Source: Nakazawaea peltata (taxonomy: Eukaryota > Ascomycota > Pichiomycetes > Alaninales > Pachysolenaceae). From it: a stretch of 64,000 nt of DNA. Positions 4,392 to 50,895 of the stretch are shown piece after piece (position 1 is the first letter of the stretch; the number at the start of each line of letters is the position of its first letter). The notes under the pieces were generated by a model. The model did no database searches. It was not told the origin of the DNA and saw nothing but the letters and a program-made list of their open reading frames with translations. Where the stretch lies: positions 751,249 to 815,248 of the forward strand of contig BCGQ01000004.1 in NCBI GenBank assembly GCA_001599355.1. The letters are read 5' to 3'. The position numbers and the translations under genes are program-made.

Positions 4392-5342
4392 TTACAGTTC
4401 ATGCTCTCCGAAAGCGGCATCGTAGAAGTACAAAACAGCAAAGATGAAGAAAGCAGCAGCACCTCCCAAAGTGACGTTTCTCATACTGATTCTAGTAGCC
4501 AAAAGTTTACCTCCAATGACGGCTCCACCAGTACAAACACCATGTCCGACAATGGCACCCAGAATGACCAGCCAGTAATCACTACCGGCAGCCATGGCAA
4601 TAGTGGCGATTTGAGATCTGTCACCCCATTCTCCCAAGAAGGTCATCACAAATACTTGGACGAACAACGGGGATAATATTAAAGATGACATTTGTTTTAA
4701 AGATTCCAACGTTTCCAGTAAAGTTTGCTTCCAACCACCCATGGCAATTGGAGATCCACCTCTTTCAGTGGCGTCCATTCTCTGATTGATATCACTCATA
4801 GCAATCTCTTCCTCTACCTCGGCCATTTCTTCGTCGACACCAACCTCTTTAGACATACTTAAACCTTCGTTCAATAATTTATAACCAAAGACAACAAAAA
4901 GAACACCGGCAAGGAATTGAGTGAACTGTTGTGGGATCAACAGAGGTAACAGGTGACCAACGATACCACTTAAGATGGTCATAATGGCCAAAGCGGCGAA
5001 CAGAGCTGAAAATACCACGACTCTGGACAGTTTCATCAGCATTAACAGCAGAATTAAGAAGGTCTTATCACCAATTTCAGATACAATGATCATGGAGACC
5101 GACATGACGAATGGGTTGGAGGCGGAGGATCCACCTTCCTCGACAGATTTCTCCTTCTTTTGATAGATATCGTCGTCGTCGTCACCATAAGTGGAAGATC
5201 CGCCCTTGGTAGGAATAGGAGCGTCGTGTTGGATGGAACCAACGACGTTTTTCTTGGATTCCACGTCCAGAATTCCGGCGGATGTCGTGGCGTATACGGC
5301 ACCGATGGCGATGGCGGTGGTGATCAACTGAGTGAGTTTCAT
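4392..5342 (-). CDS. GDT1: GDT1, Golgi Mn2+/Ca2+ transporter (UPF0016/TMEM165)
   Basis: Gdt1 carries Mn2+ and Ca2+ into the Golgi lumen and supports glycosylation and calcium tolerance. The 316-residue protein starts with a signal-like hydrophobic stretch. It has two clusters of three membrane helices, each opened by the family motif E-x-G-D-(K/R)-(T/S): EIGDKT near residue 88 and EWGDRS near 238. An acidic central loop separates the clusters, as in the family. Five CTG codons (on + at 5049-5051, 5046-5048, 5037-5039, 5028-5030, 5001-5003) follow the first motif. Decoded as Ala, four of them sit where S. cerevisiae Gdt1 has alanine (FLIAALMAM, FSAAF). The 3' end is 40 bp from the convergent Cwf18 gene. 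Confidence 0.95.
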   Translation of the reverse strand: MKLTQLITTAIAIGAVYATTSAGILDVESKKNVVGSIQHDAPIPTKGGSSTYGDDDDDIYQKKEKSVEEGGSSASNPFVMSVSMIIVSEIGDKTFLILLLMLMKLSRVVVFSALFAALAIMTILSGIVGHLLPLLIPQQFTQFLAGVLFVVFGYKLLNEGLSMSKEVGVDEEMAEVEEEIAMSDINQRMDATERGGSPIAMGGWKQTLLETLESLKQMSSLILSPLFVQVFVMTFLGEWGDRSQIATIAMAAGSDYWLVILGAIVGHGVCTGGAVIGGKLLATRISMRNVTLGGAAAFFIFAVLYFYDAAFGEHEL

Positions 5343-5700
5343 TTTGGTCCTGTTCAGGTGAGGTGTTGGTGAGGCTGAGGACGTGATCGGGATCTTATTT
5401 TTTAGGTGTTATCTTGAGAAAAGTTTTTCTGCCCTTTGCCGACGCGGAGGGGCAAGAAAGGTGCGCCGGAGGGCGGGCAAAAAAGGGGGAGGGCAGGGGA
5501 GGGCAGACAGAGCCAGTCACCAGTCACTGGACCAGTCACTGGAGCAGAAGGTCACATGATCAAAATGAGAACAGTTCAGTTGAGTCGAGCAGAGAGGTGG
5601 GGCCAGCACTATACACAGAGCTTGCCGGGCACAAAGCTTGCCGGGCACAAAGCTTGCCGGGCACAGGCACTACATTCTACATCTCTTAAATCATCATTTA
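5343..5700. other. intergenic with short direct repeats
   Basis: This lies upstream of GDT1 and downstream of the kinase gene. It holds three head-to-tail copies of a 16-bp unit, GCTTGCCGGGCACAAA, at about 5620-5667, the last one diverged at its end. A looser CCAGTCACTGGA repeat sits near 5513-5545. No coding gene is supported. Confidence 0.6.
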
Positions 5701-7080
5701 TTACGGCAATGGCTCATTAGACGAACTCAACCTGTTCAAATGAAGGTAAACATCCGTCCCATATCCCTCCATACTAATCAACTTCAAATCTCCCCCAAAA
5801 TACTTCGCATAAAGTCTGGAAATAGGTAACCCGTACCCAAATCCGGCCATTGGAGCTCTGAAATCTGACTTATTATGCTCAGGTTCAATATTTGGCAAGA
5901 GATCAACAGTAGTATATAAGTAGGTCCAGATCAATGGGATAGCACTTCTGGCAATTCCACCCCCTTCATCCGAAATCTTAATAGTTATATCTTCTTGTCC
6001 TTCAGCCACAATGATTTTAATAGGAGGGAACTCGATATCCTCAATGTCCACACCTGGGTTTTTCTTGATATGATGTTCTACAGTGGCACGGAGGGAATTC
6101 TTCAACGTTTCAAATAACATGTGCAAAAGATGACCAGGAACGTACATGAAATTCAAATCTTCAGGACAGTAAAGCTTCACCTTTGGGGCCTCAAATAATC
6201 CGTAATGCTCTTCACATACAAAACGAGCACTATCTATAGCATCATTCAGAATATCAGCAATGTTGGTATTCAAGCAAATGATCCCTACGTAGTCTTCATT
6301 CATAGCCGAGTATTCTTGACTGATCAGAATTTGCTGACCAATCAACATTCTGATCCCAATTCTCGAAAGATAAAACAGATCGAGGAAATTCTGGATTTGA
6401 GAGTCCAATAATAAGTTCTGATTCGATCTCTTCCATTCTTGTACACCTCTCAGTACAGTAGTCACAGTAGCATCGTGTCTTTTCTTGATCACTCTCAAAG
6501 TATCAGTGACCAACTTATTATATTCATACACTTCCAGTGGGTAGACAATATCGGAGGGAGAAGAGATGAAGTACGACTTTTTGTTCCCGTTAGGTCCATG
6601 GCCATGATGAGAATGAGGAGGATGTTGTCTAGGAGTCCTTATAATCAACCCATCGTCTTCGAAAATGGGTTTAGTTGGACCAAAAGTAGGCTCGGAGGTC
6701 ACCTCCGATTGGACTTGCAGTTGAATTGGAATCTGGAAATCATTCGAACCGTTCTTATAAAGCAACAGTTTCAAATCCAGATCGATCTTGGGTTTCGGGA
6801 GTGTAGTCAACTCCTCAAAAGACTGACTATACCAATCACGGACCTTCATGATGGAACTATTTTGGTTTAAACCGTACGGTAACTCGTCAAGCTCTTTAAC
6901 TCTATGCAGTAACCTCACCGGGAGTTCTTGGACTATGAATTCGGAGGCATGGAAAAGCGTTCCTGGAGAAGGTCTCGGTCCGAATTTGACCATATCTTTT
7001 AAAGATACTCCAGTGGCCTGCAACTTGCTGTATTCATAGATCTTGTTCTTTAATTCGTTGGTTAACTGCCACCTTGACAT
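5701..7080 (-). CDS. mitochondrial pyruvate dehydrogenase kinase (PDK/BCKDK family)
   Basis: PDK-family kinases phosphorylate and switch off the E1-alpha subunit of pyruvate dehydrogenase in the matrix. The 459-residue protein has the canonical N-terminal helical domain (ATGVSLKDMVKFG, PSPGTLFHASEF, ELPVRLLHRVKEL, VRDWY within residues 22-105). The GHKL ATP-binding domain follows, with the N-box ETLKNSLRA, the G1 box DEGGG and the G2 box GFGYGLP. Both halves are intact, so activity is expected. S. cerevisiae has two paralogues, PKP1 and PKP2; this sequence is close to the general PDK pattern and I cannot say which it is. No clear cleavable presequence is visible. Confidence 0.9.
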   Translation of the reverse strand: MSRWQLTNELKNKIYEYSKLQATGVSLKDMVKFGPRPSPGTLFHASEFIVQELPVRLLHRVKELDELPYGLNQNSSIMKVRDWYSQSFEELTTLPKPKIDLDLKLLLYKNGSNDFQIPIQLQVQSEVTSEPTFGPTKPIFEDDGLIIRTPRQHPPHSHHGHGPNGNKKSYFISSPSDIVYPLEVYEYNKLVTDTLRVIKKRHDATVTTVLRGVQEWKRSNQNLLLDSQIQNFLDLFYLSRIGIRMLIGQQILISQEYSAMNEDYVGIICLNTNIADILNDAIDSARFVCEEHYGLFEAPKVKLYCPEDLNFMYVPGHLLHMLFETLKNSLRATVEHHIKKNPGVDIEDIEFPPIKIIVAEGQEDITIKISDEGGGIARSAIPLIWTYLYTTVDLLPNIEPEHNKSDFRAPMAGFGYGLPISRLYAKYFGGDLKLISMEGYGTDVYLHLNRLSSSNEPLP

Positions 7081-7771: not shown

Positions 7772-8542
7772 TCAAATATACTGAGAAAGCCTCTTGTACC
7801 AAGCATACCAAATACTTTTAGTGTCATTGAATACTTCTAAGGCTGGTGCACCCCCCTTCTGAGCCAGTTTATGCCAAAGAATAGTACCGAAAAGATAGAA
7901 ATCGGAATAGATTGGTTTGTCTCCAGTAAGGAACTTGTGTTCACCTGAGAAGAACTTCTTCAAATCATGACGCGATTCAAGAGAGTTCAATGTTTCAGTA
8001 ACATCTTCGTTGATCAGGTCAAAATGTTCCTTTGGTTGCTTGACCAATTCTCTGACATCACCGAGACCTTTTTCCATTCTAGTCAAACGATAGAATTGTC
8101 TAGCGTCATCTTCTTCCTCGATAATATTATAAATGAAAGGAAAGGCCACTGGAAAAACCTTTCTTGCGACATCAAGAATAGACAGATCAATTTGCTTTCC
8201 AAGCAGTCTAATCTCCTCAGTAGCACCATAAATCTTTTCACCAACACCGTATCTTTCAGCAAGAGCATCTGGAATGAAATATTCACCCCCCATAACAGTC
8301 GTGCCTGTTTGTCTAAAAGTGACGGCAGGAAGACTATAGTGACAGTGCATGAAGACTCTTTGTTCTGCCCAAGATTTAACTCCGAGACCTTTTAAGGTGG
8401 AGGCAATTTCGGGGTATCTTAAAAATTTGGTCTCATATTTGATTCCAAGGTAACTCAATAAACAACGAATTTTGGTGGTACTTGGGGACCATGGTTCAGG
8501 GACAAGCTTAGAAGAGAGGTCGTAAAAAGTTAACTCACGCAT
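7772..8542 (-). CDS. GST-like protein, copy 1 of a tandem pair
   Basis: The 256-residue protein resembles fungal glutathione S-transferase-like proteins of the LigE/etherase-like type. An N-terminal thioredoxin-like half opens with LTFYDLSSKL and continues SPSTTKIRCLLSYLGIKY, with a conserved YPEI. An all-helical C-terminal half includes FLTGDKPIYSDFYLFGTILW. Such proteins normally bind glutathione; the substrate is unknown. It lies head-to-tail with a near-identical paralogue about 500 bp upstream. The two proteins differ mainly around residues 125-140. A role in detoxification is an inference from the family only. Confidence 0.8.
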   Translation of the reverse strand: MRELTFYDLSSKLVPEPWSPSTTKIRCLLSYLGIKYETKFLRYPEIASTLKGLGVKSWAEQRVFMHCHYSLPAVTFRQTGTTVMGGEYFIPDALAERYGVGEKIYGATEEIRLLGKQIDLSILDVARKVFPVAFPFIYNIIEEEDDARQFYRLTRMEKGLGDVRELVKQPKEHFDLINEDVTETLNSLESRHDLKKFFSGEHKFLTGDKPIYSDFYLFGTILWHKLAQKGGAPALEVFNDTKSIWYAWYKRLSQYI

Positions 8543-9040: not shown

Positions 9041-9811
9041 TTAAGCATATTGAGAAAGTCTTTGGTACCAAGCATACCAAATACTGTTAGTGTCATTGAA
9101 CACTTCTAAAGCTGGTGCACCCCCCTTCTGAGCCAGTTTATGCCAGAAGATGGTACCGAAAAGATTGAAGTCAGCATAAATTGGTCTGTCACCAGTAAGG
9201 AATTTATATTCACCGGAGAAGAACTTCTTCAAATCATGACGAGATTCAAGAGAGTTCAATGTTTCGGTAATATCTTTATTGATCAGATCAAAATGTTCCT
9301 TTGGTTGTTTAACCAATTCTCTGACATCACCGAGACCTTTTTCCATTCTAGTCAAACGGTAGAATTGTCTAGCGTCATCATCTTCCTCGATGATGTTGTA
9401 AGTGAAAGGACCGGCAACAGCAAGGACTTTACCTAAGATCTCAAGAATAGACAGATCAATTTGCTTTCCAAGCAGTTTGGTTTCTTCGGTGGCACCATAG
9501 ATCTTTTCACCAACATCGTATCTTTCAGCAAGAGCATCTGGGATGAAATACTCACCCCCCATAACGGTCGTGCCTGTTTGTCTAAAAGTGACTGCAGGAA
9601 CACTATAGTGACAGTGCATGAAGACTTTTTGTTCTGCCCAAGATTTGACTCCAAGACCTTTTAAGGTGGAGGCAATTTCGGGGTATCTTAAAAATTTGGT
9701 ATCATATTTGATTCCAAGGTAGTTCAATAAACCACGAACTTTAGTAGTATTTGGAGACCAGGCTTCAGGGACAAGCTTAGAAGAAAGGTCGTAGAAAGTT
9801 AAGTCAGACAT
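9041..9811 (-). CDS. GST-like protein, copy 2 of a tandem pair
   Basis: This 256-residue paralogue of the gene at 7772 has the same two-domain GST-like layout (LTFYDLSSKL, SPNTTKVRGLLNYLGIKY, YPEI, then FLTGDRPIYADFNLFGTIFW). The nucleotide sequence stays very close to copy 1 along most of its length. The clearest divergence is a block near residues 120-145 (LEILGKVLAVAGPFTY against LDVARKVFPVAFPFIY), in the first helices of the C-terminal domain, where GSTs usually bind the electrophilic substrate. That hints at substrate divergence, but it is inference. Both copies look intact. Confidence 0.8.
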   Translation of the reverse strand: MSDLTFYDLSSKLVPEAWSPNTTKVRGLLNYLGIKYDTKFLRYPEIASTLKGLGVKSWAEQKVFMHCHYSVPAVTFRQTGTTVMGGEYFIPDALAERYDVGEKIYGATEETKLLGKQIDLSILEILGKVLAVAGPFTYNIIEEDDDARQFYRLTRMEKGLGDVRELVKQPKEHFDLINKDITETLNSLESRHDLKKFFSGEYKFLTGDRPIYADFNLFGTIFWHKLAQKGGAPALEVFNDTNSIWYAWYQRLSQYA

Positions 9812-16784: not shown

Positions 16785-17423
16785 ATGTCAGGAACTCCAG
16801 AACCTGTAGAAAAGTTATACATCCACTACAACTACGTGCATAAGTTGTGCCAAATTGGAGCTGAGCAAATCAGAGCCAAAGTCGGAAAGCCAGATATCAT
16901 CATCCTGATTGGAGGTGGTGGTTTTATTCCAGCTAGAATCTTGAGATCCTTCATTAAAAAACCAGAAGAAAAAAATATCCCTATTCAACTGATTGGATTG
17001 TCTTTGTACGAAGATTTAGGTACCGGTGGTGAAGGTGTCATTGGTAAAGAGGTCATTAGAACTCAGTGGTTGGATTTTGGTGCCTTGGCCGAGCATTTCG
17101 ATACTTTGATCGGCAAAAATATCCTCATCGTAGATGAGGTCGATGACACCAGAACTACTTTGCATTATCTGTTGAGCGAATTACAAAAAGATGTACTGGA
17201 ACAAGCTGAAAAATTGGGTAGATCCAACGAGGAGACCAAATTTTCCATCTTTGTCTTGATTAATAAGGACAAACCAAAGAAGGCTCAATTACCAGAGGAG
17301 ATGTTTGCCGAGGGCAGATACTTCTCTCCTAGAATTTGTGGTGATGCTTGGTGTAACTTCCCTTGGGAAGCCGTTGACATCGATCAACACAGTAAATTTG
17401 CTGAGCAACAGGGTAATATCTAG
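16785..17423 (+). CDS. HPT1: HPT1, hypoxanthine-guanine phosphoribosyltransferase
   Basis: This enzyme salvages hypoxanthine and guanine by joining them to PRPP, giving IMP and GMP. The 212-residue protein has the type I PRTase core: IGGGGFIPARILRSF at about 42-56, SLYEDL, RTQWLDF and the PRPP loop IVDEVDDTRTTLHY at about 113-126. Length is close to S. cerevisiae Hpt1 (221). CTG codons at 16905, 17169 and 17196, read as Ala, restore IIIAIGGGG, LHYALSEL and KDVAEQA, which are the S. cerevisiae residues as I recall them. XPT1-type xanthine PRTases are related, so substrate choice between hypoxanthine and xanthine is slightly uncertain. Confidence 0.92.
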   Translation: MSGTPEPVEKLYIHYNYVHKLCQIGAEQIRAKVGKPDIIILIGGGGFIPARILRSFIKKPEEKNIPIQLIGLSLYEDLGTGGEGVIGKEVIRTQWLDFGALAEHFDTLIGKNILIVDEVDDTRTTLHYLLSELQKDVLEQAEKLGRSNEETKFSIFVLINKDKPKKAQLPEEMFAEGRYFSPRICGDAWCNFPWEAVDIDQHSKFAEQQGNI

Positions 17424-20711: not shown

Positions 20712-21285
20712 TTAGAGTACTCTACTACTATACTCTACTACTGTACTCTACTACTATACTCTACTACTATACTCTACTACTGTACTCTACTACTATACTC
20801 TACTACTATACTCTACTACTATACTCTACTACTATACTATACTATACTATACTTCTATACTACTCTACTACTGTACTCTACTGCTGTACTATACTCTACT
20901 ACTATACTATACTACTATACNNNNNNNNNNNNNNNNNNNNNNNNNNNNNNNNNNNNNNNNNNNNNNNNNNNNNNNNNNNNNNNNNNNNNNNNNNNNNNNN
21001 NNNNNNNNNNNNNNNNNNNNCTACTACTATACTATACTATACTATACTTCTATACTACTCTACTACTGTACTCTACTGCTGTACTATACTCTACTACTAT
21101 ACTATACTACTATACTATACTATACTATACTCTACTATACTATACTCTACTGCACTACCCTACTACTATACTATACTATACTATACTCTACTGCACTACC
21201 CTACTACTATACTATACTATACTATACTATACTACTATACTACTCTAGTATTATACTACTACTATACTATACCACTACATCTCTC
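20712..21285 (+). repeat. TACTA/CTACTATACT microsatellite interrupted by gap
   Basis: About 570 bp are built from CTACTACTATACT, CTACTGTACT and TATACTATACT words, mostly permutations of TAC/TACTA with no fixed long period. The segment left of the gap (about 20828-20920) recurs almost word for word right of the gap (21021 onward), so a higher-order repeat crosses the unresolved part. The true length in the genome is unknown. Confidence 0.9.
20921..21020. other. assembly gap (100 N)
   Basis: Exactly 100 N lie inside the microsatellite, a conventional placeholder for a gap of unknown size. Duplicated flanks suggest that the assembler could not pass the repeat. Confidence 0.98.
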
Positions 21286-22275: not shown

Positions 22276-23469
22276 ATGGGTTTCGATTTGAAAACATTGG
22301 CTAGACCAAATATTTTGTCTTTAGAGCCATATCGTTGTGCTAGAGACGATTACCAAGAGGGGATTTTATTGGACGCCAATGAGAACACTCATGGCCCTGC
22401 CGCCGCTGCTCTGTTAAGTGAGCTGGAGAAAGCTTTGGAGTTGAACAGATACCCTGATCCTCATCAAATTGTTCTTAAACAACAGATCTGTGATTTCCGT
22501 AATGAGGAGCTGTCTTTGGATTCTGCAGAGATCAAGTTGGCCGACTGTGGTTCCCCTTTGAAACCTGAGAATTTATGCCTTGGTGTAGGTTCTGATGAAA
22601 GTATTGACCTGTTGATCAGATGTTTCTGTGTCCCAGGTAAGGATAAGATGTTGACTTGTCCTCCTACTTATGGAATGTACTCTGTTTGTGCTACTGTGAA
22701 TGATATTGAAATTGTCAAGCTGCCTCTTGATTTGACCACTTTTGAGATCCAACCTGACCTCATCAATGAACTGCTCAACAAGGATCCCTCGATTAAATTG
22801 GTTTATATCACAACTCCAGGTAATCCTACTCTGAAGAAAGTCGATTTCTCTCTTGTTGAGAAGGTCTTACTTAATGAGAATTGGAATGGTGTTGTCATTT
22901 GTGATGAACTGTACATTGATTTTGCTCCATTGGGTTCTTCTGTCGCTCCATTAGTGAACAAATATCCTAATTTGGTCGTTTTACAGACATTATCTAAGTC
23001 TTTCGGTTTGGCCGGTGTCAGATTGGGTATCTGTTACTCGGACCCACTGATTAGTATTTTGTTGAACTCCATGAAATACCCTTATAATATCTCCAATTTG
23101 TCTTCGGATGTTGCTTTAAGAGCCACTACCAAAGACGCTATCAAGGCCATGAGAGCTTCTTGTGAGGTTTTGATCAAGAATCGTGAAATTTTACTGGAAC
23201 AATTGCTTGCCTTACCTAATATTGGTAGAAATATCGGTGGAATGGATGCCAATTTCATCTTGATTGAGGTCTTGGATGCCGCTGGTAAGCCTTCTAATGA
23301 GATCGCCAACAAGTTGTACTTGAAATTGGCTACTGAGAAGAAGGTTGTCGTTAGATTCAGAGGAAAGGAATTGGGATGTTTCGGTGCTCTTAGAGTAACT
23401 GTAGGTACTGTTGAAGAAAACAAGATCTTGGTACAAAAGTTCGACGAGGCATTGAAGGAGATCCTCTAA
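22276..23469 (+). CDS. HIS5: HIS5, histidinol-phosphate aminotransferase
   Basis: His5 is a PLP enzyme that makes histidinol phosphate from imidazole-acetol phosphate with glutamate as amino donor (histidine pathway). The 397-residue protein has LDANENTHGP near the N-terminus, GVGSDESIDLLIRCFC, TPGNPT, the PLP-lysine region TLSKSFGLAGVRLG and a final FRGKELG arginine segment. CTG at 22909 lies in the family motif DEAYIDF: the standard code gives DELYIDF, the Ala reading restores it. Length equals the usual HisC/His5 size. A Gcn4 site lies upstream. The 3' end is 19 bp from the convergent SAY1-like gene. Confidence 0.95.
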   Translation: MGFDLKTLARPNILSLEPYRCARDDYQEGILLDANENTHGPAAAALLSELEKALELNRYPDPHQIVLKQQICDFRNEELSLDSAEIKLADCGSPLKPENLCLGVGSDESIDLLIRCFCVPGKDKMLTCPPTYGMYSVCATVNDIEIVKLPLDLTTFEIQPDLINELLNKDPSIKLVYITTPGNPTLKKVDFSLVEKVLLNENWNGVVICDELYIDFAPLGSSVAPLVNKYPNLVVLQTLSKSFGLAGVRLGICYSDPLISILLNSMKYPYNISNLSSDVALRATTKDAIKAMRASCEVLIKNREILLEQLLALPNIGRNIGGMDANFILIEVLDAAGKPSNEIANKLYLKLATEKKVVVRFRGKELGCFGALRVTVGTVEENKILVQKFDEALKEIL

Positions 23470-33579: not shown

Positions 33580-34337
33580 ATGAGAGGTAAGTAGATGACA
33601 AAATTAGATTATACAACTGGTACTAACACATTGAAGACTACAAACTTGTCGTTTTAGGAGCAGGTGGTGTAGGAAAATCCTCCATCACAGTACAATTTGT
33701 TCAAGGTGTTTATGTCGAAAGTTATGACCCAACCATTGAAGATTCATATCGTAAGCAAATAGAAGTTGATGGACGCGCATGTGATTTAGAAATCTTAGAT
33801 ACCGCTGGTGTTCTGCAATTCACGGCTATGCGCGAATTGTATATCAAATCAGGAAAAGGATTCTTGTTAGTGTACTCAGTTACCGACGAGACGTCATTAC
33901 AAGAATTAGAAAGCATTAGACAGCAATTGGTTAGAATCAAGGACACCGAAAATGTTCCAATGCTGCTCATAGGAAACAAATGTGACTTAGATGATGAGAG
34001 GAAAGTCACTGCCGAGGACGGGATCCTGGTATCACAAAGATGGGGTAAAGTTCCATTCTATGAAACGAGTGCTATGTATAAGACAAATGTAGAGGAACTG
34101 TTTGTCGATGTTGTTCGTCAAATTATTAGAAAAGAGGTCAATCCGAACCCTCCAGCCCTGCAAGCTCTGCCTGTCGCTGCTCCAAGAGCTTCTACTGCAC
34201 CTTCTGCACCATCATCTCTGTCCAAGATTCCTGACACTCAACCATCTTCAAAGGGTGCAGAGGCTAAGAAACCACTGACTACTACAACTCAACCTAAAAA
34301 GAGGAAAATGAAAAAAATGAAGTGTGTCATCTTATAA
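33580..34337 (+). CDS. RSR1: RSR1/BUD1, Ras-like bud-site GTPase (spliced)
   Basis: Rsr1 marks the bud site and recruits Cdc24/Cdc42. Exon 1 is only 7 nt (33580..33586, ATG AGA G). A 50-nt intron follows, with donor GTAAGT at 33587, TACTAAC at 33621-33627 and AAG ending at 33636. Exon 2 runs 33637..34337. Splicing gives [18 protein letters not shown], the exact Rsr1 start, and a 235-aa protein. Seen are the P-loop, DPTIEDSYR effector loop, DTAG, GNKCDL and ETSA. An Ala/Pro-rich linker, a basic tail and CVIL (a prenylation box favouring geranylgeranyl) end the protein. CTG at 33813 read as Ala restores [15 protein letters not shown]. Confidence 0.96.
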
Positions 34338-34671: not shown

Positions 34672-35640
34672 ATGTCACAAAAATTGGATATTTTGAAATT
34701 CGCTAATAAAGATGGAGAATACAAGAGATTGGCCTCATCATTCCGTGATGAGGTTTCTCTGGCTCCTGGTCTGAAGTTTGCCCCAGAAAAGGGAAGATAT
34801 CATTTGTATGTCAGTTATGCTTGCCCATGGGCCACTAGAACTTTGATTGTTCGTCGTTTGAAGGGATTACTGTCAATTATTGGACTCAGTGTTGTTCATT
34901 GGCATATGGACTCCAATGGCTGGAGATTCCTTAAAGATGGCGATGAAGAATGTGAGGGCGCTACCGAAGAACCTCTTTATGGATTCAAGAGAATCAAGGA
35001 ATTGTATTACAAGGCCAATCCAAATTACGAAGGCAGATTCACCGTCCCTGTCTTATGGGATAAGAAGTTGGAAACCGTTGTCAACAATGAAAGTTCCGAG
35101 ATTATCAGAATGTTTAACCATTCGTTCGACAGTTTGCTCAGTGAACCATTCCAAAAGATTGATTTCTATCCTACTGATTTAAGATTGAAAATTGACGGTT
35201 TGAACGATTGGATCTACAATAACATCAATAACGGTGTTTACAAAGCTGGTTTCGCAACTAAACAAGAAGTTTACGAAAAGGAAGTCAAGAATGTATTTGA
35301 AAACCTCGACAGAGTGGAGAAAGTTTTGGCTGATGTGCAAGCCAAGGGTCAAAATTATTTGACCGGTGAAAGACTTACCGAACTGGATATCAGATTATTT
35401 GTCACCATCATCAGATTCGACCCTGTCTATGTCCAACATTTCAAGTGTAATATCGGTATGATCAGATATGACTACCCTCTGATTCATAAATGGTTGCGCC
35501 ATTTATATTGGGAGATTCCAGGTTTCAAAGAGGAGACCAATTTCGATCATATCAAATTCCATTACACCAAATCTCATCCTCTGATCAATCCTCATGCCAT
35601 TACCCCACTCGGTCCTGCTCAAAATATTTTACCTTTATAA
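34672..35640 (+). CDS. ECM4: ECM4/GTO-type omega-like glutathione transferase
   Basis: This is a 322-residue cytosolic or peroxisomal glutathione transferase of the Ecm4/Gto2 (xi/omega-like, glutathionyl-hydroquinone reductase) class. The thioredoxin-like half has YVSYACPWATRTLIVR near residues 44-60, with the catalytic Cys in ACPWA. SVVHWHMD and the VPVLWD/NNESSEI glutathione-binding segment follow. The C-domain has LTGERLTELDIRLFVTIIRFD and the diagnostic Tyr-rich YPLIHKWLRHLYW. The active cysteine and Tyr segment are both present, so quinone reductase or thiol-transferase activity is expected. Its promoter carries two TTACTAA sites. Confidence 0.93.
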   Translation: MSQKLDILKFANKDGEYKRLASSFRDEVSLAPGLKFAPEKGRYHLYVSYACPWATRTLIVRRLKGLLSIIGLSVVHWHMDSNGWRFLKDGDEECEGATEEPLYGFKRIKELYYKANPNYEGRFTVPVLWDKKLETVVNNESSEIIRMFNHSFDSLLSEPFQKIDFYPTDLRLKIDGLNDWIYNNINNGVYKAGFATKQEVYEKEVKNVFENLDRVEKVLADVQAKGQNYLTGERLTELDIRLFVTIIRFDPVYVQHFKCNIGMIRYDYPLIHKWLRHLYWEIPGFKEETNFDHIKFHYTKSHPLINPHAITPLGPAQNILPL

Positions 35641-37488: not shown

Positions 37489-39009
37489 ATGTCTACTAGA
37501 GATATTCCACCATCGACTTCAGCTGCTGCTGCTCAAGCTGCTTTGGCCGGATCTTCCACCAATCTTAATGCCGCATCTCAACAGCCATCATACAGTAACC
37601 TCAACGCTGCTGCTGGAGCCAATAACAATAACAACTCTGGTCTGCTGGCACCACAACAATCTTTAGCATCGTCTTCCAGTAGTTCTGGTGGCAACTCTCA
37701 AATCGTTGGTTTACACTACAAATTGGGTAAGAAAGTAGGCGAAGGTTCGTTTGGTGTTATCTTTGAAGGTACCAATATGATCAATGGTGTTCCAGTGGCT
37801 ATCAAATTCGAACCTAGAAAGACCGAGGCTCCACAATTGAGAGATGAATACAGAACTTACAAACATCTCAGTGGATCTCCAGGTATTCCAAACCTGTATT
37901 ATTTTGGTCAAGAAGGTTTACACAACATTTTAGTCATTGATTTGTTAGGTCCATCTTTAGAAGATTTGTTCGATTGGTGTAACCGTCGTTTCACCATTAA
38001 GACTGTAGTTCAAGTCCTGGTTCAAATGATTACTTTGATTGAAGAAGTTCATCTGCATGATTTGATCTACAGAGATATCAAGCCAGATAACTTCCTTATT
38101 GGAAGACCAGGATTAGCTGATGAACATCAAGTTCATTTGATCGATTTCGGTATGCTGAAGCAATACAGAGATCCAAGAACCAAGCAACACATTCCTTATC
38201 GTGAGAAGAAATCTTTGAGTGGAACTCTGCGTTACATGTCTGTTAATACTCATTTAGGTAGAGAGCAAAGTAGAAGAGACGATTTGGAGCTGTTGGGTCA
38301 CGTTTTCTTCTACTTCTTAAGAGGTCAATTGCCATGGCAAGGATTGAAGCTGCCAACCAACAAACAAAAATACGAAAAGATTGGTGAAAAGAAGAGAACC
38401 ACTCCAGTTTTAGATTTATGTGCCGGGTTACCAAAACAATTTGCCATTTATTTGGAAACCGTTAGAGGATTACTGTTTGACCTGGAACCAGATTACAATT
38501 ATTTGCGTAACTTGTTGTTATCACTGTTGGATGATTTAGGAGACGAGCCAGATGGAAGTTATGACTGGCAAAAGTTGAATGGAGGTCGTGGTTGGGATCT
38601 GCTGATCAATAAAAAACCAAACTTGCATGGTTATGGTCATCCAAACCCACCAGGTGAAAGAGATAGACGTCATCATCACGGTCATCATCACAACTCCCAA
38701 CAACAACAACAACTGCAATTACAACAACTGCAAAGAAGAAACCAACAATCAAGAACTCAGCAATACTCTTCTCTGCAATTACAACAACAACAACAACAAC
38801 AAATGCAACAACAATTTGTTTCTAGTGCTAGAAACAATAGCAGACCGTTACCTCAAGTTCCTTCTCAAACTCAATTGATGCAACAACTGGACTATCCTCA
38901 ATACAAGTCCAAGCAGGAGCCAATACTAGACAACACAGACAATGGCATCTCTAGACAAGAAATGAACAACCAAGATGACGAAAAGAAAAAGTTCTGTTTC
39001 TGTTTCTAG
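37489..39009 (+). CDS. YCK2: YCK2-type plasma-membrane casein kinase I
   Basis: Yck1/2 are membrane-bound casein kinases acting in nutrient sensing, endocytosis and morphogenesis. The 506-residue protein has a Ser/Ala/Asn-rich head and a kinase domain at about 76-355 (GEGSFGVIFEG, AIKFEPR, YRDIKPDNF, IDFGM, HIPYREKKSLSGT). A His and Gln-rich tail (CAA runs near 38700 and 38785) follows. It ends in FCFCF, two cysteines likely palmitoylated in place of the usual CC. Six CTG codons (38017, 38053, 38155, 38227, 38290, 38350) fall on kinase positions where I recall Ala in S. cerevisiae Yck2 at nearly all (VQVAVQM, HAHDL, DFGMAKQY, GTARYM, LKAP). YCK1/YCK2 are post-duplication paralogues; here one gene. 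Confidence 0.95.
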   Translation: MSTRDIPPSTSAAAAQAALAGSSTNLNAASQQPSYSNLNAAAGANNNNNSGLLAPQQSLASSSSSSGGNSQIVGLHYKLGKKVGEGSFGVIFEGTNMINGVPVAIKFEPRKTEAPQLRDEYRTYKHLSGSPGIPNLYYFGQEGLHNILVIDLLGPSLEDLFDWCNRRFTIKTVVQVLVQMITLIEEVHLHDLIYRDIKPDNFLIGRPGLADEHQVHLIDFGMLKQYRDPRTKQHIPYREKKSLSGTLRYMSVNTHLGREQSRRDDLELLGHVFFYFLRGQLPWQGLKLPTNKQKYEKIGEKKRTTPVLDLCAGLPKQFAIYLETVRGLLFDLEPDYNYLRNLLLSLLDDLGDEPDGSYDWQKLNGGRGWDLLINKKPNLHGYGHPNPPGERDRRHHHGHHHNSQQQQQLQLQQLQRRNQQSRTQQYSSLQLQQQQQQQMQQQFVSSARNNSRPLPQVPSQTQLMQQLDYPQYKSKQEPILDNTDNGISRQEMNNQDDEKKKFCFCF

Positions 39010-39754: not shown

Positions 39755-39830
39755 TTATATAAGCGGGGGGATGCATTATATGTATATAAAGGATATTAAT
39801 ATTATAGTGTTAACATAGGAGGGATGTAAA

Positions 39831-41854
<2,024 letters not shown>

Positions 41855-42550: not shown

Positions 42551-42585
42551 CTAGGACATTTAATCATCATTTAATATACATTCGT

Positions 42586-43419
42586 TTATACACGTTTGAA
42601 CTTCTTTTTCTGTCTCTGTAGCAGCGATTCTTCTACGTCTTCTATACTTCTTTTATCACTGGTGACATCTCTAACAAGTTGTTTGTAACTTTTGAATCTC
42701 AAATGACCGTTTAATATGACTTTTAATGCGATTTCAGACATCGATTTGATGCAGCTATTATGATCTAAACCTAAGACGATTAAGAGGTTGGTGACGTCGA
42801 ATTGCAGTTTCAAATTGACGGCACTAGTTGCTCCACTCGAGATGACTAACCCACGAGATCTAGAAGCCCTAATTAAAGAAAGTGTGTTCAGGTAAAATTG
42901 TCTCTTGGCTGAGGACACAGAAGTGAATAATGGCAGGTAAACGATCTCAAATTTGATTCCTTTCTCTACTGCACTATTGACAAGCTTGTGTCTTAAGAAA
43001 CAAGGTAATTTTTGGTCGAATTTGAATGAAATCAAGTCAATATCTTGATTCACCAGCAACATGACCAGTTTCTCACTTAATGGTTGGACACTAATGATAT
43101 CAAATTGGGATCCAAATTTGGCTAAATTGACAGAGTTGGAAGTCTCTTCGACAACCAAGGTGAGTCTGGTATATATCTTCATGGTTTTTAATTTGGGTTC
43201 AGATTCGATGAAACTAAGATCAATAGGGTTCAAATTTCCTTTCTGTTGTTTAGTGATGTTCTTCAAGTTGTCCTGATTGAGAGTGAAATTGATCAGTATG
43301 TGGGTGTATTGTAAAGTATTAGCGAACAATAAGGTCAGTTTCAACTGAGAAAGTTGTTGGTTTGTCGGCACTGAGTAATCGTTGCATGGCCATGGTATAT
43401 TTAAGTCGCATAAGACCAT
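42586..43419 (-). CDS. RPP1: RPP1, RNase P/MRP subunit (p30 family)
   Basis: Rpp1 is a TIM-barrel-like protein subunit of nuclear RNase P and RNase MRP, which process tRNA and rRNA precursors. I start at the ATG at 43419 (MVLCDLNIPWP), giving 277 residues, because S. cerevisiae Rpp1 begins MLVDLNVPWP. The frame continues upstream into a Phe/Leu/Ser-rich stretch that looks untranslated. Seen are YTHILINFTLN, NPIDLSF, IYTRLTLVVEE, QDIDLISFKFDQKLPCFLRHK, KGIKFEIVYLP, RASRSRGLVISSGA and LNGHLRFKSYKQL, all in the family order. The tail is basic. Confidence 0.9.
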   Translation of the reverse strand: MVLCDLNIPWPCNDYSVPTNQQLSQLKLTLLFANTLQYTHILINFTLNQDNLKNITKQQKGNLNPIDLSFIESEPKLKTMKIYTRLTLVVEETSNSVNLAKFGSQFDIISVQPLSEKLVMLLVNQDIDLISFKFDQKLPCFLRHKLVNSAVEKGIKFEIVYLPLFTSVSSAKRQFYLNTLSLIRASRSRGLVISSGATSAVNLKLQFDVTNLLIVLGLDHNSCIKSMSEIALKVILNGHLRFKSYKQLVRDVTSDKRSIEDVEESLLQRQKKKFKRV

Positions 43420-44027: not shown

Positions 44028-44879
44028 ATGACCCAACCAACTACAGCTTCTTATTCCCTGCAGGACAACTTTGACAAATCCCGTACTATGATGGATAACA
44101 TAGGGGAACATTGTGTGGAATGTAATCAGTTAGATTTCCTTCCATTCACATGTCATTTATGTCATAAATCATATTGTTCACTGCATCGTCTGTTATATAA
44201 TGAGCATGAGTGTGTGAAGAAGAGTATTCAGACCAAGACATCGAGCACTAGCTCCAATACTGGGACCAGCACTGGCTCCGGCTCTGTCAAACTGTTGTTT
44301 CCTGACCGCGCTAAACAATGGGAAGAAGGTCAAGCTGCAGCTTTAAAGAATAAATCAAACTCAATATTAGGTCAAATGGAACTGAAAGAAGATAATTTGG
44401 CCAAATCCCTGCTACTTAAGTTAAAAAAGTTCCTCAAGAAGCAACAAAAGACAGGAATCCTGTCCAAATTCGCTAAGAAATCTACAAGCACAGTTACAAG
44501 CAGAATAGTGGAAGTTGCAAAATTGAAGAAAATCGCTATTGGTGATCTGAAGGTACCCTCTTCAGAGAGATTATATATATATGTGAGGTATGTTCCTTCA
44601 TTAGAGGAAAGCAAAGCCGACAAAGATGGCAAATTAATAGGTATTTGGGTCTCAAGAACATGGCCAATAGGTAGACTTCTTGATCAAGCATCATTACATT
44701 TGAAAATTAAGAATGAAAATAACAGGACTCAAGATCCCGAAAAAAAATTGACCATCTTCAGAGCTCCTAGACATTCAGAAACCGATAAAGAACCGGTATA
44801 TATTCCAGCTAATTCACGTGTTATTAAAGAAGTCGAAGATGGAGATACTCTTTATGTGGTCAGAGGTGCAGCTATTTAG
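44028..44879 (+). CDS. CUZ1: CUZ1, Cdc48-associated AN1 zinc-finger protein
   Basis: Cuz1 links the Cdc48/p97 ATPase to the proteasome and helps in arsenite tolerance. I start at 44028 (MTQPTTASYS), giving 283 residues (S. cerevisiae 274). The open frame reaches further upstream into a promoter-like, Ser-rich stretch. The AN1 finger is CVECNQLDFLPFTCHLCHKSYCSLH then HEC at about residues 35-62. A Ser/Thr linker and basic helix follow. The C-terminal ubiquitin-like domain has LYIYVRYVP, IWVSRTWPIGRLLDQAS and the end GDTLYVVRG. Its stop overlaps that of the convergent CSL4 gene by 4 bp. Confidence 0.9.
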   Translation: MTQPTTASYSLQDNFDKSRTMMDNIGEHCVECNQLDFLPFTCHLCHKSYCSLHRLLYNEHECVKKSIQTKTSSTSSNTGTSTGSGSVKLLFPDRAKQWEEGQAAALKNKSNSILGQMELKEDNLAKSLLLKLKKFLKKQQKTGILSKFAKKSTSTVTSRIVEVAKLKKIAIGDLKVPSSERLYIYVRYVPSLEESKADKDGKLIGIWVSRTWPIGRLLDQASLHLKIKNENNRTQDPEKKLTIFRAPRHSETDKEPVYIPANSRVIKEVEDGDTLYVVRGAAI

Positions 44880-45748
44880 AAAGGCTTTGCACATTTTCTC
44901 AATTCGACATCTCCAGTGGATATTTCAATCATAGTCTCCCAATCCAACAGGAACATGGATTCTCCTTCACCATTTTTCAGCTTGGCAAATACGACTCCGA
45001 GATCATTACGGGCCGTACTCAAATAATAATTAGATCCATCTCCCTTTGAGATGATTATCAGTCTTAAGACATCTCCGGGTTTAAAATTCTCATAAATCTT
45101 CAACTTATCACGTTCTGTAGATCTAATATCTTGTAATCTAATAATACCTTTGAAGTTTTCTCCCACATCAGCAGAGTTGTTACTCAAGGCCGTAGTTGCA
45201 ACGGTAGAAAAGGTCGAAGGGTTCAGGTTCTGAGAAATTTCACTCAGATCTATACCGGAATCCTTAGTGATTAAACCTCTATTTTCCACAGCTATGATCT
45301 CTACATTCAGTTGACGGTTGGAGATCCTCATAACACGACATAGTACCACGTCATTCTCTTGAGGTAACAAACTAGACGAAGTGGTGTTCAGTAATATTTT
45401 TTCACCTTCTTTACTAATCTTAATGGGGGTTAAATCAATGTCCATAGAATTGGTATTCTGATCAGTGGTAAAGTCAGAATAATCATTATTCTTGTTTATC
45501 ACACTGAGTATGTATTCATGGGTTGTTTCATGGTTTTCTTCATCAATTTCTCTCTCATATACCCTGACATGGCCTAAAAGAGTAGAAGTCACCACAGTAA
45601 CAGGTTTACCTTCTACTTCAATAGACTGTAAACGGGTCCCAGGACCCGGAATATACTTAATAATGCTTTTATCCAGTTCTACATCGAACTGAGGAGCCAA
45701 TGGTTGACCAGGAACGGCTACTTTCGGTATTTCAATCATATTTTCCAA
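44876..45748 (-). CDS. CSL4: CSL4, RNA exosome cap subunit
   Basis: Csl4 is one of three S1/KH cap proteins of the RNA exosome. The 290-residue protein (S. cerevisiae 292) has an N-terminal domain with VAVPGQPLAP and YIPGPGTRLQSIEVEGKPVTVVTSTLLG. An S1 fold follows (DVVLCRVMRISNRQLNVEII, GENFKGIIRLQDIRSTERDKLKIYENFKPGDVLRLIIISKG), and then a zinc-ribbon-like C-terminal domain (YYLSTARNDLGVVFAK, then the end VELRKCAKPF). The YLSTARNDLGVVFA segment is strongly typical of the family. Confidence 0.93.
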   Translation of the reverse strand: MENMIEIPKVAVPGQPLAPQFDVELDKSIIKYIPGPGTRLQSIEVEGKPVTVVTSTLLGHVRVYEREIDEENHETTHEYILSVINKNNDYSDFTTDQNTNSMDIDLTPIKISKEGEKILLNTTSSSLLPQENDVVLCRVMRISNRQLNVEIIAVENRGLITKDSGIDLSEISQNLNPSTFSTVATTALSNNSADVGENFKGIIRLQDIRSTERDKLKIYENFKPGDVLRLIIISKGDGSNYYLSTARNDLGVVFAKLKNGEGESMFLLDWETMIEISTGDVELRKCAKPF

Positions 45749-45968
45749 TCTTCCTTCATCATCTTCATCTCTCTTCCTGCCTTTACTTAAAAATTTTACT
45801 TAAAATTTTGCCAGAGCATATTACGAATCTACAGATGATATACATGAGCATATTACGAATTATATTATTTTGAGGTGCTGAGCAGTTTACGAATTACCTC
45901 CCTAGAAAAAGTGGACAACAAAACAAAACAGCGGCTAATCCCAAACCATTAAATTAACCGAGGTAGAG

Positions 45969-47456
45969 ATGGTTGAAGTATCGTTAACAATTGGTAAATT
46001 GGATGCGTCTTTGGCATTGTTATTGACCAAAGACCACCATTTGATCGAGTTCCCGACAATTTTATTGCCTGATGGAGTTGTCGCCGGATCCGTCGTTAAG
46101 ATCAAATGTGATAGAGATCTCGAGTCTGAGACTAAAGAGAAGAATGAATTTGAAGAGATGCAGAGACAAATTCTCAGTACTTTTGGAGAGAAATTCCCTA
46201 AACTGCCTACTTTGACCGTTAAGAATGTCACTCAGACCAGTTGTGTTTTAGAATGGGATAGATTGGACTTGGCTACCTCTTCTATTAAGTCTTTGAGTTT
46301 GTATAAGGATGGGGTTAAATTGGGACAGATCCCGAATCCATTACAAAATACTACTACCAAATTGAGTGGGTTGCCAATTGACACCGAATATAAATTCCAA
46401 TTGAAGTTATCGACCACTGCTGGTGTTTTCAATAGTAATGAAGTCGTGGTGAAGACTCATAAGATGACCGATTTATCAGGTATTACGGTATGTATTGGAG
46501 AGATTGATGATGCTAGAATTTCGAGGGAGAAGATCGAAGAGTGTTTGAAGAATATGAATGCCAAGCCTTTACAGGAGAAAGTTCTGGTGGATACTACTCA
46601 TTTTATTTGCACAAAACCTAATGGTAAGGAATGGAAGAAGCTGTTAGATGGGAATATTCCAGTAGTAAGGCCAGAATGGTTGAAAGCATGTGAGTTGGAA
46701 AGACGTATTATTGGTGTTAGGATGTTTTATTTGGATGCGGATGAGGATATTTTATCTCAGAGGGATTATTGGGGAACGGGAGAATCTAGTGTGGGGGCTG
46801 AGCAGGAGCTGAAGGAGCTGGAGCCTAGTGCTCTGGAATCGACTGCTCTGGAGCTGACTGAGCTGGAACCAACTGCTCTGGAGCCAATTGAGCCAGAACA
46901 AGATGAGCCAAAGCAACCTGAGCCTTTACCTAAAGATGATGTCGAGGTTCCTGTGACGGAGGAGAAACTTGATGAAATTCCATTGGATTCTAGTGAGGCT
47001 CTGCTGAGTGAACCAGTTGAAGAGACTGTTGAACCTGCAACTGAGGAGCTGGTTACCGAAGAAGCTGTAGTTGAGGAACCTGCCGCTGAACCTGTAATTG
47101 AAGAACCTGTTGCTGAAGAACCTGTTGCTGAAGAACCTGTTGCTGAAGAACCTGTTGCTGAAGAACCTGTTGCTGAAGAACCTGTAACTGAAGAGCCTGC
47201 AACTGAAGAGACTGTTGCTGAAGCTTCAACTGAGGAACCTGCAATTGAAGAACCTGTGGTTGAGGAGCCTGTTGCTGAAGCTGCTCCAGTATCTACTGAT
47301 GAACCTGCCGATGAAACTCCTGCCGATGATCAAGACACCGCAGATGGTACAGTATCTCCAGTAGACACAACAGACATCCCAACCCCTACAACCACCTCCA
47401 ACGGTGCCTCCAAATCCAACAAGAAAAAGAAAAAGAACAACAAGAAGAAGAAATAA
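45969..47456 (+). CDS. CHS5: CHS5, exomer scaffold
   Basis: Chs5 is the core of exomer, the Golgi coat that sorts chitin synthase Chs3 to the surface. The 495-residue protein has the N-terminal dimerisation segment ([29 protein letters not shown]), an FN3 domain at about 75-165 ([29 protein letters not shown]) and a BRCT domain at about 170-262 ([38 protein letters not shown]). A low-complexity acidic repeat region follows, with about six AEEPV units encoded by 15-bp repeats near 47095-47190. It ends in a Lys-rich tail, as S. cerevisiae Chs5 does. Confidence 0.94.
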
Positions 47457-47573
47457 TCATCCTAGATAACAATTGTGTACTTTTACAAGACATATAAATA
47501 GTAATCATTCTTTAATTGTGGTGTATAAAATGCAAGAAACACATTTGATCGTGAATTGAATATATAAGTGGAT

Positions 47574-47936
47574 CTACTCCCCAAACAATCTTCTAACCCT
47601 TCTTAAGACACTGTCCTTTTCTGGATCGTATGGGTGGTCCTTGGATGGAATCTCCAATATAGCTGGGAACAGTTTGGTGAAAGTGTCAACCTTGTATCTA
47701 ATTTTCTCGGCAATATGTTGATTGATCAATAAAATAGCAATATCATCCCTTGTCTCGGTGAAGAGGTCGAACGATTTCTCAATCTCCTCGTCCAGAGTCT
47801 TGGAGTCCACGACGATGAAGTTCTTCTCTTTATTCAATTCGGAGGAAACGGCTCCAACTCCGGCCAATAACATACCAGTTACGGTATCTTCGTCACCAAT
47901 CACCAGGATCAAGGTTCTATTCTTGTTATCAGACAT
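47574..47936 (-). CDS. VMA7: VMA7, V-ATPase subunit F
   Basis: Subunit F sits in the rotating central stalk of the vacuolar H+-ATPase V1 sector. I start at the ATG at 47936 ([19 protein letters not shown]), giving 120 residues, equal to the family (118 in S. cerevisiae); the upstream extension is not conserved. Seen are [31 protein letters not shown] and [30 protein letters not shown], the standard C-terminus. Confidence 0.96.
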
Positions 47937-48138
47937 CTTACGGTATCCTCTAGACCTCCAACACGGGCTAAGTTTTGGGCCTCTCATAAATTTCGCAGGC
48001 GAAAATGGGCAATATTTGCAGCAGGGTAGGAATTGGTTGGCAGTGCACGACCTTTTAATTTTTAGGGGTGGAAATCCAAGGTGAAAAATTGGAGGAGTTG
48101 AGTTAGATGGGCTACTGTTGGGGGATAGCTGAGAAGAG

Positions 48139-48963
48139 ATGTTCGGTATTTCTAGAAGTATTTTGAGGGCCAGTGTTCCTCGGAATTATAGAGCATTAAG
48201 TTCGACTGGATATCCATTGGCCGGCCACTCTAAATGGGCTAATATCAGACATGGTAAGGCTAAAAATGACCTGCAAAGAGCCGATTTGGCTTTCAAAATG
48301 GCTCAACAAATCACTATTCTGGTAAGATTAGGAGGACCAGATCCAGATGGGAACCCTCTGTTACTGAATTGTTTGGAACGTGCTAAGAAACTGAGTGTGC
48401 CTAAGAAAGTGGTAGATAACGCTATAAAGAGAGCCTCAGGTCAGGTAGATTCTAAGGAAAATTTAGAGGCCGTCACATACGAAGGGATGGGACCTCATGG
48501 TGTGGCTGTTATAGTGGAACTGTTGACTGATAACAAAAGTAGAACTATTGGGTTCGTCAAGCCTTGTTTCGGTAAGGCTGGAGGACAGTTATCTCCTACA
48601 TTGTTCATGTTTGATAAGAAGGGATTCCTCACCATTGACCGTGGAGAAAAAGAATTCGATGATCTTTTCGAGGACGTTTTAGAATCGGGAGCTGAAGATC
48701 TCGAGGAATTGCCAATTGATGCGCAGGAAAATCCAGAAGGTAAATTAGTGGAGATCATTTCTGACCCATCCGAAACTGCTACAGTACAGAAGAACTTGAA
48801 AGAGATGGGATATCTGGTGAAGGATATGAGTATCGGATATAAAGCTAAGGATGATATGATGGTGGAGTTGACCGAGGAACAACAACTGGGTGTAGACAAA
48901 TTCCTCTCAAAATTGGACGAAGTCAGCGATGTAAGTTGTGTCTACACTAACATTAAAGAATGA
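48139..48963 (+). CDS. DPC29: DPC29, mitochondrial YebC/TACO1 family translation factor
   Basis: This is a 274-residue mitochondrial member of the YebC/TACO1 family, which assists mitochondrial translation. Residues 1-28 form a basic presequence ([19 protein letters not shown]). The YebC core follows with [16 protein letters not shown], ending in [24 protein letters not shown] codons at 48319, 48358 and 48364, read as Ala, give [27 protein letters not shown], matching the general YebC pattern (I-x-V-A-V-R-x-GG-x-DP, NP-x-L). The gene name follows S. cerevisiae YGR021W. Confidence 0.88.
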
Positions 48964-49160
48964 ACCAAATCTTGTATATAAATAATTGCAGTTGGATTGA
49001 TCCTATATATGAGTACATCCCATAGAGAGACATAATAAATTATTTAAAATATTCAAAAATCAATGGTAACATGATGATTGAGAGTCTTGTTTTAGTGCGA
49101 GTATAGGTGAATTAACTTGTGAAATGAATGGAATATTTGTGTGAATCAGTCGTAGTGCAT

Positions 49161-49664
49161 TTACTCCTTTTGGTTAATGACCTCTTCGTACTTCTCTGGG
49201 AAAGTTGGGTTAGTTCTACCCAATCTCAAAGTCTTGTCAGTTCTGATCTTCTTGGTACTGAAGAAGATAGCGGCTATTCTAGAGTTAGTATTATGCGAAT
49301 CTTGTAAAAAATATCACTATTTCAAATACATACAACAACAAGCGACACCACAGGCAACGACTATAAATTAGTTAGTATAAAAGGGCACAATCAATACTGG
49401 ACAATCAATGATAAACTTACACAATGGGGTCAATTCAACTGGGATTTGTCTAAGGAAAGAACCAGACTTCTTCTATATCGATATGTTAGTATTTGATTTC
49501 GCATATTTGGCGATCTGACCTCGATGATGAAATATGGTCTTATTTTTTGGAGCAATCAAAAACTCATCGCGCCCAACCATCATCTATCGAATTCGAGCCC
49601 AGTTTTCGCTCCAATCATATCATGTACATACAGCAGCTTGGAAAGTGTATGGAGTAGCTCTCAT
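49161..49664 (-). CDS. hidden four-exon gene, 74-aa single-membrane-span protein, B12D/NDUFA4-like
   Basis: Four exons can be read on the minus strand: 49664..49632, 49472..49421, 49360..49334 and 49273..49161. Introns of 159, 60 and 60 nt have donors GTATGT, GTAAGT, GTATGT, TACTAAC branch points and TAG acceptors. Joined, they give 225 nt, one open frame and 74 residues. The N-terminus is MRATPYTFQAAKK. A hydrophobic span PLFVACGVACCSAIFF is followed by basic STKKIRT, and the end is NPTFPEKYEEVINQKE. The layout (AKK, short turn, PLFV-span, basic stop, NP) resembles small mitochondrial NDUFA4/B12D proteins of complex I or IV. Gene structure is well supported; the family is a suggestion. Confidence 0.75.
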
Positions 49665-49935
49665 TTTTAATAACTGTTATCGTTTACTGATACTCTGTTT
49701 GTATGATAAATTAAATATAATCTATTGGCGGTTTGATACGAAAAAACAAAAACGTGAAAAAAGGAAGAAAAGAGGAAAAATTTTGGACAAATTTGATTTG
49801 TCGCTTAGAGACCCGGGAATTTTTGGGGCCGATGACTTTTGGCAGATTTAATGTAGCATTTTATCGAGATTAGTAGTGTCACGTGACAATAATATATAAA
49901 AAGTATACAGGGAATGGTCATTGCTTCGTTAAAAG
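49665..49935. promoter_or_regulatory. promoter of the four-exon gene with GTCACGTGAC
   Basis: A perfect 10-bp palindrome GTCACGTGAC (E-box, Cbf1/Pho4-type) lies at 49878-49887, about 215 bp upstream of the four-exon gene start and 50 bp past the end of the carrier gene. An A-rich tract lies near 49740-49790. Confidence 0.5.
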
Positions 49936-50895
49936 TTATTTCTTCATGGCTTCTCTAATAAGTTCGTAAGTTGTCCATTGAATGGCCATTTGCGGAATGA
50001 TTTTGAATAAATTGGCCCATAATCCTTTGTATAATCCTCTTGGGCCTTCTACTTTGACGATGGTAGTTAACAGGTGCCAAATACCGTTATATTTGAATCC
50101 CATTTCACTATTACCCATGGTTGCAACTTGGAATCTTCTTCTTAAAAGGTCAAATGGGTAAATTAAACTCTGCAGTAAAGCCCCACTAAATCCACCTATG
50201 GCTAATTTGGAATACAGTTGGTCTGTGAAGCTGCTTGGAAGCCATTCTTTGATTTGTTCGTAAAATGTGAAACTCAATGAAGTGTATGGTGCTACGCCCA
50301 TTGCGGTTGGAAAGAAACCTCTATATAACAGTTTAATTCCCCCTTCTGTTTTGTAAATCTTGATAACCGATTTCAATACTCCTGGTGGTTTTTGTTGTTT
50401 CAGATCAACTTTAGATTCACTTAAATTCTTAAGAGATGCAGTCTGAATAGAAAGTCTGGTCTTGACCAAATCCATAGGATATGTGGCTCCAACAGATGCT
50501 ACACCTGCAACTGCACCACTCAGCAATTTCTGCTCAGTATTCAATTCAGTCGAATCCGTTCCCTTCAATAAATAATCTTTGATGTTTTGGTATGTCAGAT
50601 ACTGAACGGCACTGTACGGAATCACTCTGATACAATTGATACCATTACCTCTAAAATATCCTTTGAATCCTTCTTCTCTTCCAATTTTCAAAAGAGTCTT
50701 TGCAATTCCATCATTATAAGACAGTTGTCCCGGTCCTTGAACTTGATATAAAACTTTGATTCTCTCAAAGGGCGCGCTAGCGGTTCTCGATAACAGACCT
50801 GCAATTCCACCGGGCACAAAGGAGGTAACAACATCATTTCGAAGAAAGTTTCGAACTGGAGTTAATATTCCAGTTTCTTCTGATAAAGACGTCAT
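49936..50895 (-). CDS. mitochondrial carrier, YPR011C-like (APS/PAPS transporter type)
   Basis: This is a 319-residue inner-membrane carrier with three SolCar repeats. The signatures are PFERIKV (repeat 1), YPMDLVKTRLS (repeat 2) and YPFDLLRRRFQV (repeat 3), each followed by a GxxGLYRG-type segment (GYFRGNGINCIRVIPYSAVQYL; LYRGFFPTAMGVAPY; GLYKGLWANLFKIIP). Repeat sequences match S. cerevisiae YPR011C, which carries adenosine 5'-phosphosulfate and PAPS. CTG codons on + at 50794-50796 and 50173-50175, read as Ala, give GGIAGALSRT and GALAQSLIYP, as expected for carriers. Substrate is inferred from the homologue. Confidence 0.85.
   Translation of the reverse strand: MTSLSEETGILTPVRNFLRNDVVTSFVPGGIAGLLSRTASAPFERIKVLYQVQGPGQLSYNDGIAKTLLKIGREEGFKGYFRGNGINCIRVIPYSAVQYLTYQNIKDYLLKGTDSTELNTEQKLLSGAVAGVASVGATYPMDLVKTRLSIQTASLKNLSESKVDLKQQKPPGVLKSVIKIYKTEGGIKLLYRGFFPTAMGVAPYTSLSFTFYEQIKEWLPSSFTDQLYSKLAIGGFSGALLQSLIYPFDLLRRRFQVATMGNSEMGFKYNGIWHLLTTIVKVEGPRGLYKGLWANLFKIIPQMAIQWTTYELIREAMKK

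Follow-up and report, generated by a model that had tools for sequence, protein, structure and literature searches.

The window, that is, the whole stretch of 64,000 nucleotides analysed, was compact budding-yeast DNA with about 40% G+C and many long open frames, interrupted by an assembly gap (a run of 100 N at 20921-21020). We selected 36 frames from 48, excluding 12 that were nested, antisense or short, and CTG represented 309 of the 15,170 codons of these frames (frequency 0.020). Gene names rest on matches to solved structures and to Pfam families, save for CHS5, UTP9, SPT23, RPS1, IMD, UBC12 and MRPS17, names assigned tentatively from the appearance of the sequences.

The original prediction had been that CTG codons in this DNA are read as alanine, and all the CTG codons that it listed were present and in frame. 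The genes that it had flagged encode a GDT1-like transporter (4392..5342, minus strand, 12 CTG), an HPT1-like hypoxanthine phosphoribosyltransferase (16785..17423, plus, 4 CTG), a HIS5-like histidinol-phosphate aminotransferase (22276..23469, plus, 10 CTG), an RSR1-like GTPase (33580..34337, plus, 8 CTG), a YCK2-like casein kinase (37489..39009, plus, 18 CTG), a PDR16-like lipid transfer protein (39831..40904, minus, 10 CTG), a DPC29/TACO1-like protein (48139..48963, plus, 8 CTG) and a mitochondrial carrier (49936..50895, minus, 9 CTG). The in-frame cluster of CTG announced for GDT1 within 5001-5051 was there, but it held five codons and not four. The RSR1-like gene contained a 50-base intron (33587-33636, GTAAGT ... 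TACTAAC ... AAG) within its third codon; the frame counted starts at an inner ATG, so that the CTG at 33813 was missed in the 36-frame count. An intron was also seemingly located directly after the start codon of the UBC12-like gene (upstream of 52712, minus strand), with GTAAGT and TACTAAC upstream of the frame.

Five unflagged genes were also analysed, encoding an ECM4-like glutathione transferase (34672..35640, plus, 6 CTG), an RPP1-like RNase P/MRP subunit (42586..43419, minus, 8 CTG), a CSL4-like exosome subunit (44876..45739, minus, 8 CTG), a VMA7-like V-ATPase subunit F (47574..47987, minus, 3 CTG) and an ORC1-like protein (57786..60044, plus, 16 CTG). The VMA7-like frame extends 18 codons upstream of the ATG that agrees with the homologues, and its true start is probably at 47933. 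Two further genes had no CTG at all: an RPS1-like ribosomal protein gene (61377..62147, plus, 13 GCN codons), as had been noted in advance, with two single N in its frame (61697 and 61751), and an IMP-dehydrogenase-like gene (62792..63949, minus, 29 GCN codons).

Two other features proved to be of no use for deciding the code. Two GST-like genes arranged in tandem on the minus strand (7772-8542 and 9041-9811) were identical at 685 of 771 bases and had all four CTG positions in common, which makes the comparison of these paralogues uninformative. The acidic tail of the CHS5-like protein (46809-47050 and following, plus strand) mixed CTG with GCT and then continued in near-identical EEPVA repeats with Ala written as GCT; the CTG interleaved with GCT in this Ala/Glu-rich stretch fits alanine and proves nothing.

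Residues facing CTG in masked alignments

Twelve proteins, in which every CTG was replaced by X, were matched to homologues of solved structure; 18 stretches of these homologues were then aligned anew, and the residues facing each codon were counted. These stretches of solved chains were hand-picked among the matches listed, at most five per search (two of four matched stretches in the case of ORC1), and the test covered 12 of the 36 frames. One main homologue per gene was picked after the alignments had been seen; the figures for all 18 stretches are independent of that pick.

The 82 CTG columns obtained with the main homologues faced Ala 37 times and Leu and Ser only twice each, the rest being 7 Glu, 7 Gly, 5 Asn, 4 Val, 3 each of Gln, Ile and Lys, 2 each of Asp, Arg and Thr, and 1 each of Cys, Phe and Pro. 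In the same alignments, GCN codons had Ala opposite them in 59 of 129 columns, the standard Leu codons except CTG had Leu in 60% of 300 columns, and Ser codons had Ser in 32% of 180 columns. Seen from the homologues, 37 of 216 Ala columns were written CTG, as were 2 of 294 Leu columns. The pattern named beforehand as speaking against alanine, CTG columns falling mostly on Leu or Ser, was thus absent from the 12 proteins. When the likelihood of the 82 columns was calculated, Ala was the best among the 20 residues, with Ser second and 30.1 nats below, and Leu 122.5 nats below. All 18 stretches gave 121 CTG columns with 56 Ala, 3 Leu and 3 Ser, and placed Ser 48.6 and Leu 173.8 nats below Ala.

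Resampling gave the same picture. In 20,000 draws of 82 Ala-codon columns the mean was 37.5 Ala, practically the 37 observed for CTG. Equal numbers of draws from Leu-codon columns never exceeded 11 Ala nor fell below 33 Leu, and those from Ser-codon columns never exceeded 27 Ala nor fell below 11 Ser. When the genes were bootstrapped (12 genes, 1000 rounds), the best residue was Ala 977 times, Ser 15, Gln 6, Gly once and Cys once.

Standard leucine, with the Ala matches arising by chance or from the choice of examples, would have required far more than the two Leu columns found, HIS5 codon 112 (where the two homologues tabulated both have Leu) and ORC1 codon 391, and it is also at odds with the unflagged genes, in which CTG faced Ala as well. 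Ala stood in 24 of 52 CTG columns and 37 of 82 GCN columns of the seven flagged genes, and in 13 of 30 CTG columns and 22 of 47 GCN columns of the five unflagged ones. Because these shares are similar, we ruled out that the signal had been created by the selection of examples in the original prediction.

Single genes varied. Ala was found in all four columns of HPT1 (against 2jky), in seven of ten aligned columns of YCK2 (against 5x18, with no Leu), in five of seven of CSL4, in two of three of VMA7, in five of nine of the carrier (against 1okc, homologue identity 32%), in four of eight of DPC29 (against 1lfp), in four of eight of ORC1 (with one Leu) and in three of eight of PDR16 (no Leu or Ser). 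It was scarce in ECM4 (one of five, no Leu or Ser), RPP1 (one of seven, with one Ser and no Leu) and HIS5, a weak case (one of nine, the codon at 22909, with one Leu and a homologue identity of 35%), and absent from the four aligned columns of RSR1 (against Rap-1b, no Leu or Ser). Of the 16 sites named individually outside GDT1, 14 had Ala in the main solved homologue and none had Leu or Ser. The two exceptions were in-frame CTG codons at which the announced alanine match was not found: RSR1 33813, Glu in Rap-1b (the match claimed referred to yeast RSR1), and DPC29 48358, Arg in 1lfp and Ser in 5ekz. A second homologue was not Ala at YCK2 38053 (Arg and Glu) and 38155 (Val).

Mixed decoding, in which CUG would be mainly alanine with a real share of leucine or serine, has precedents, namely about 3% Leu in C. 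albicans and a tRNA-Leu(CAG) beside the tRNA-Ser(CAG) in the Ser2 clade (PMC5951914), and a small share would be invisible to alignments. Against it, the 2 Leu and 2 Ser among the 82 columns showed no excess over the means of the GCN draws (1.9 and 6.3), and CTG was located at Ala sites common to all three kinase homologues tabulated (YCK2 codons 177, 247, 268 and 288). We consider such a mixture unlikely, and alanine as the regular meaning of CUG remains the preferred reading.

Among the codons scored, CTG was the only one with a strong departure from its standard meaning (122.5 nats). For AGC (n = 10), CAG (n = 24) and TCG (n = 20) another residue was better by 5.6-6.6 nats; CGA, CGC, CGG, CTA and GCG had fewer than five columns each, and ATG, TGG and TGT were unscored. 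The deviations of AGC, CAG and TCG, similar in size, were all taken as noise. In the case of TCG as a possible Ala codon (5 Ala and 3 Ser in 20 columns), the columns were scattered, also with Gly, Lys, Phe, Arg, Glu and Asp.

Pfam scores under three codes

Pfam searches were run on twenty proteins, in which CTG was translated as Ala, Leu or Ser by means of NCBI tables 26, 1 and 12, respectively. The summed score over 31 domains was 3675.1 bits with Ala, 3610.8 with Ser and 3542.3 with Leu. Domain by domain, Ala won against Leu in 26 cases, lost in 4 and tied in 1, and against Ser it won in 22, lost in 7 and tied in 2. The sums omitted Pribosyltran of HPT1, a gene that attains its family at the threshold used with Ala alone, and 12 overlapping families (PK_Tyr_Ser-Thr, Pkinase_fungal, Roc, Gtr1_RagA, Arf, GST_C, GST_C_3, Cdc6-ORC-like_ATPase_lid, AAA_16, AAA_22, ATPase_2 and PNPOx_N), one of which, PNPOx_N, preferred Leu (32.2 bits vs 29.8 with Ala) and another, AAA_16, Ala (44.9 bits vs 38.7 with Leu). 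HIS5 reached 202.3 bits with Ala, 187.5 with Ser and 185.3 with Leu, and RPP1 202.1, 196.4 and 188.9 bits, respectively. None of 10 solved matches had its best stretch in GDT1, which was evaluated by Pfam alone (142.9 bits with Ala, 141.6 with Ser and 131.5 with Leu); with such close scores, Ala and Ser are indistinguishable in this gene.

Serine, the meaning of CUG in the Candida clade and in Ascoidea/Saccharomycopsis, was the second-best residue by likelihood and the better one in seven of the 31 domains, including the YCK2 kinase domain, with two ties. Nevertheless, it lay 64 bits below Ala in the Pfam sum in addition to the deficit in nats, and its two columns out of 82 compare with the 32% of Ser codons and with the minimum of the corresponding draws, which makes it extremely improbable. 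Leucine, with higher scores in only 4 of the 31 domains, fell 133 bits below Ala, and together with its deficit in the columns this leaves the standard reading practically untenable. The claim that leucine and serine fit the CTG sites less well than alanine was borne out by both the columns and the profiles. CTG sites resemble Ala codons in the alignments and in the profile scores and, as judged from these comparisons of predicted proteins, alanine fits CUG far better than leucine or serine in flagged and unflagged genes alike. By alignment and profile alone, CUG would specify alanine as in NCBI table 26, and neither serine nor leucine.

Use of CTG among alanine codons

CTG made up 309 of the 1094 alanine codons (CTG plus GCN) of the 36 frames, a share of 28%. 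A homologue's Ala stood opposite 37 of the 108 CTG codons of the 12 aligned genes and opposite 59 of their 194 GCN codons (Fisher P = 0.52), although the absolute figures may be high, because seven of these genes came from the list of the original prediction. Aligned regions covered 82 of the 108 CTG codons and 3091 of the 4057 codons of all kinds in the same genes. CTA was also scarce: with CTG set aside, the 36 frames had 1435 Leu codons, 41 of them CTA.

The RPS1-like and IMP-dehydrogenase-like genes together had 0 CTG and 42 GCN codons, an outcome with a probability of 4.5e-07 if the CTG rate of the remaining frames applied, though the pair had been picked post hoc. In 35 frames the CTG share fell weakly with the share of codons generally favoured in yeast (Spearman -0.37, P = 0.03). 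The CTG-free pair and the negative correlation suggest that CUG may be a less favoured alanine codon in highly expressed genes. We lean, without great confidence, towards CUG being an everyday alanine codon here, which would match GCN in frequency at conserved Ala sites and be avoided only where expression is highest.

Comparison with known codes

With a probability of about 0.97, we interpret the window as nuclear DNA from a budding yeast in which CUG is translated as alanine (NCBI table 26), presumably by means of a tRNA-Ala(CAG). This is an already known, rare change of the genetic code and, as had been acknowledged from the start, not a new one: the CUG-Ala code, dated to 2016, has been reported in a single clade formed by Pachysolen, Nakazawaea and Peterozyma, whose tRNA-Ala(CAG) derives from a tRNA-Ala gene (PMC5951914). 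The likeliest home of this DNA would be the order Alaninales, with these three genera, and an independent reassignment of CUG to alanine in a species outside the known clade seems very unlikely. According to the literature, the reader of CUG would be a tRNA-Ala with its anticodon changed to CAG, and the ancestral tRNA-Leu(CAG) would have been lost. Particular anticodon bases are not needed by the alanyl- and seryl-tRNA synthetases (PMC5951914), and owing to this indifference the tRNA-Ala(CAG) would still be charged with alanine. Neither ARAGORN (bacterial code) nor Rfam found a tRNA in the window. As the standard code would misread the 309 CTG codons of the 36 frames, table 26 should be used for annotation, family searches and structure prediction.

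The likeness to the CUG-Ala code lies in CUG acting as alanine, with no comparable departure among the other codons that had enough columns to be judged. The CUG-Ser codes of the Candida clade and of Ascoidea/Saccharomycopsis involve the same codon and, likewise, a new tRNA(CAG) taken from the tRNA of an anticodon-independent synthetase (PMC5951914), but serine is 30 nats below alanine in the window. As in the standard code, the other Leu codons with enough columns keep leucine (CTC in 13 of 23 columns, CTT in 11 of 29, TTG in 73 of 126 and TTA in 83 of 121), in contrast to CTG, which faces Leu in 2 of its 82 columns.

The heavy use of CTG, conserved sites included, is the one less expected point and is worth following. 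In the passages of the literature available, no genome-wide CUG frequency was met for any species of the alanine clade, although one may exist in print, and one study excluded the five CUG-Ala genomes (PMC6701816). Another reports that, in species with a reassigned CUG, the codon averages 0.005, 0.003 and 0.006 in three GAL genes (PMC8084343), against 0.020 in the 36 frames counted here. In clades with a changed code, CUG is described as relatively rare and located mostly off conserved sites (PMC5951914), whereas here CTG represents more than a quarter (28%) of the alanine codons and is present at conserved Ala sites. Given that published picture, should the heavy use at conserved sites hold genome-wide, this species would be well suited to study how far the uptake of a reassigned codon can go.
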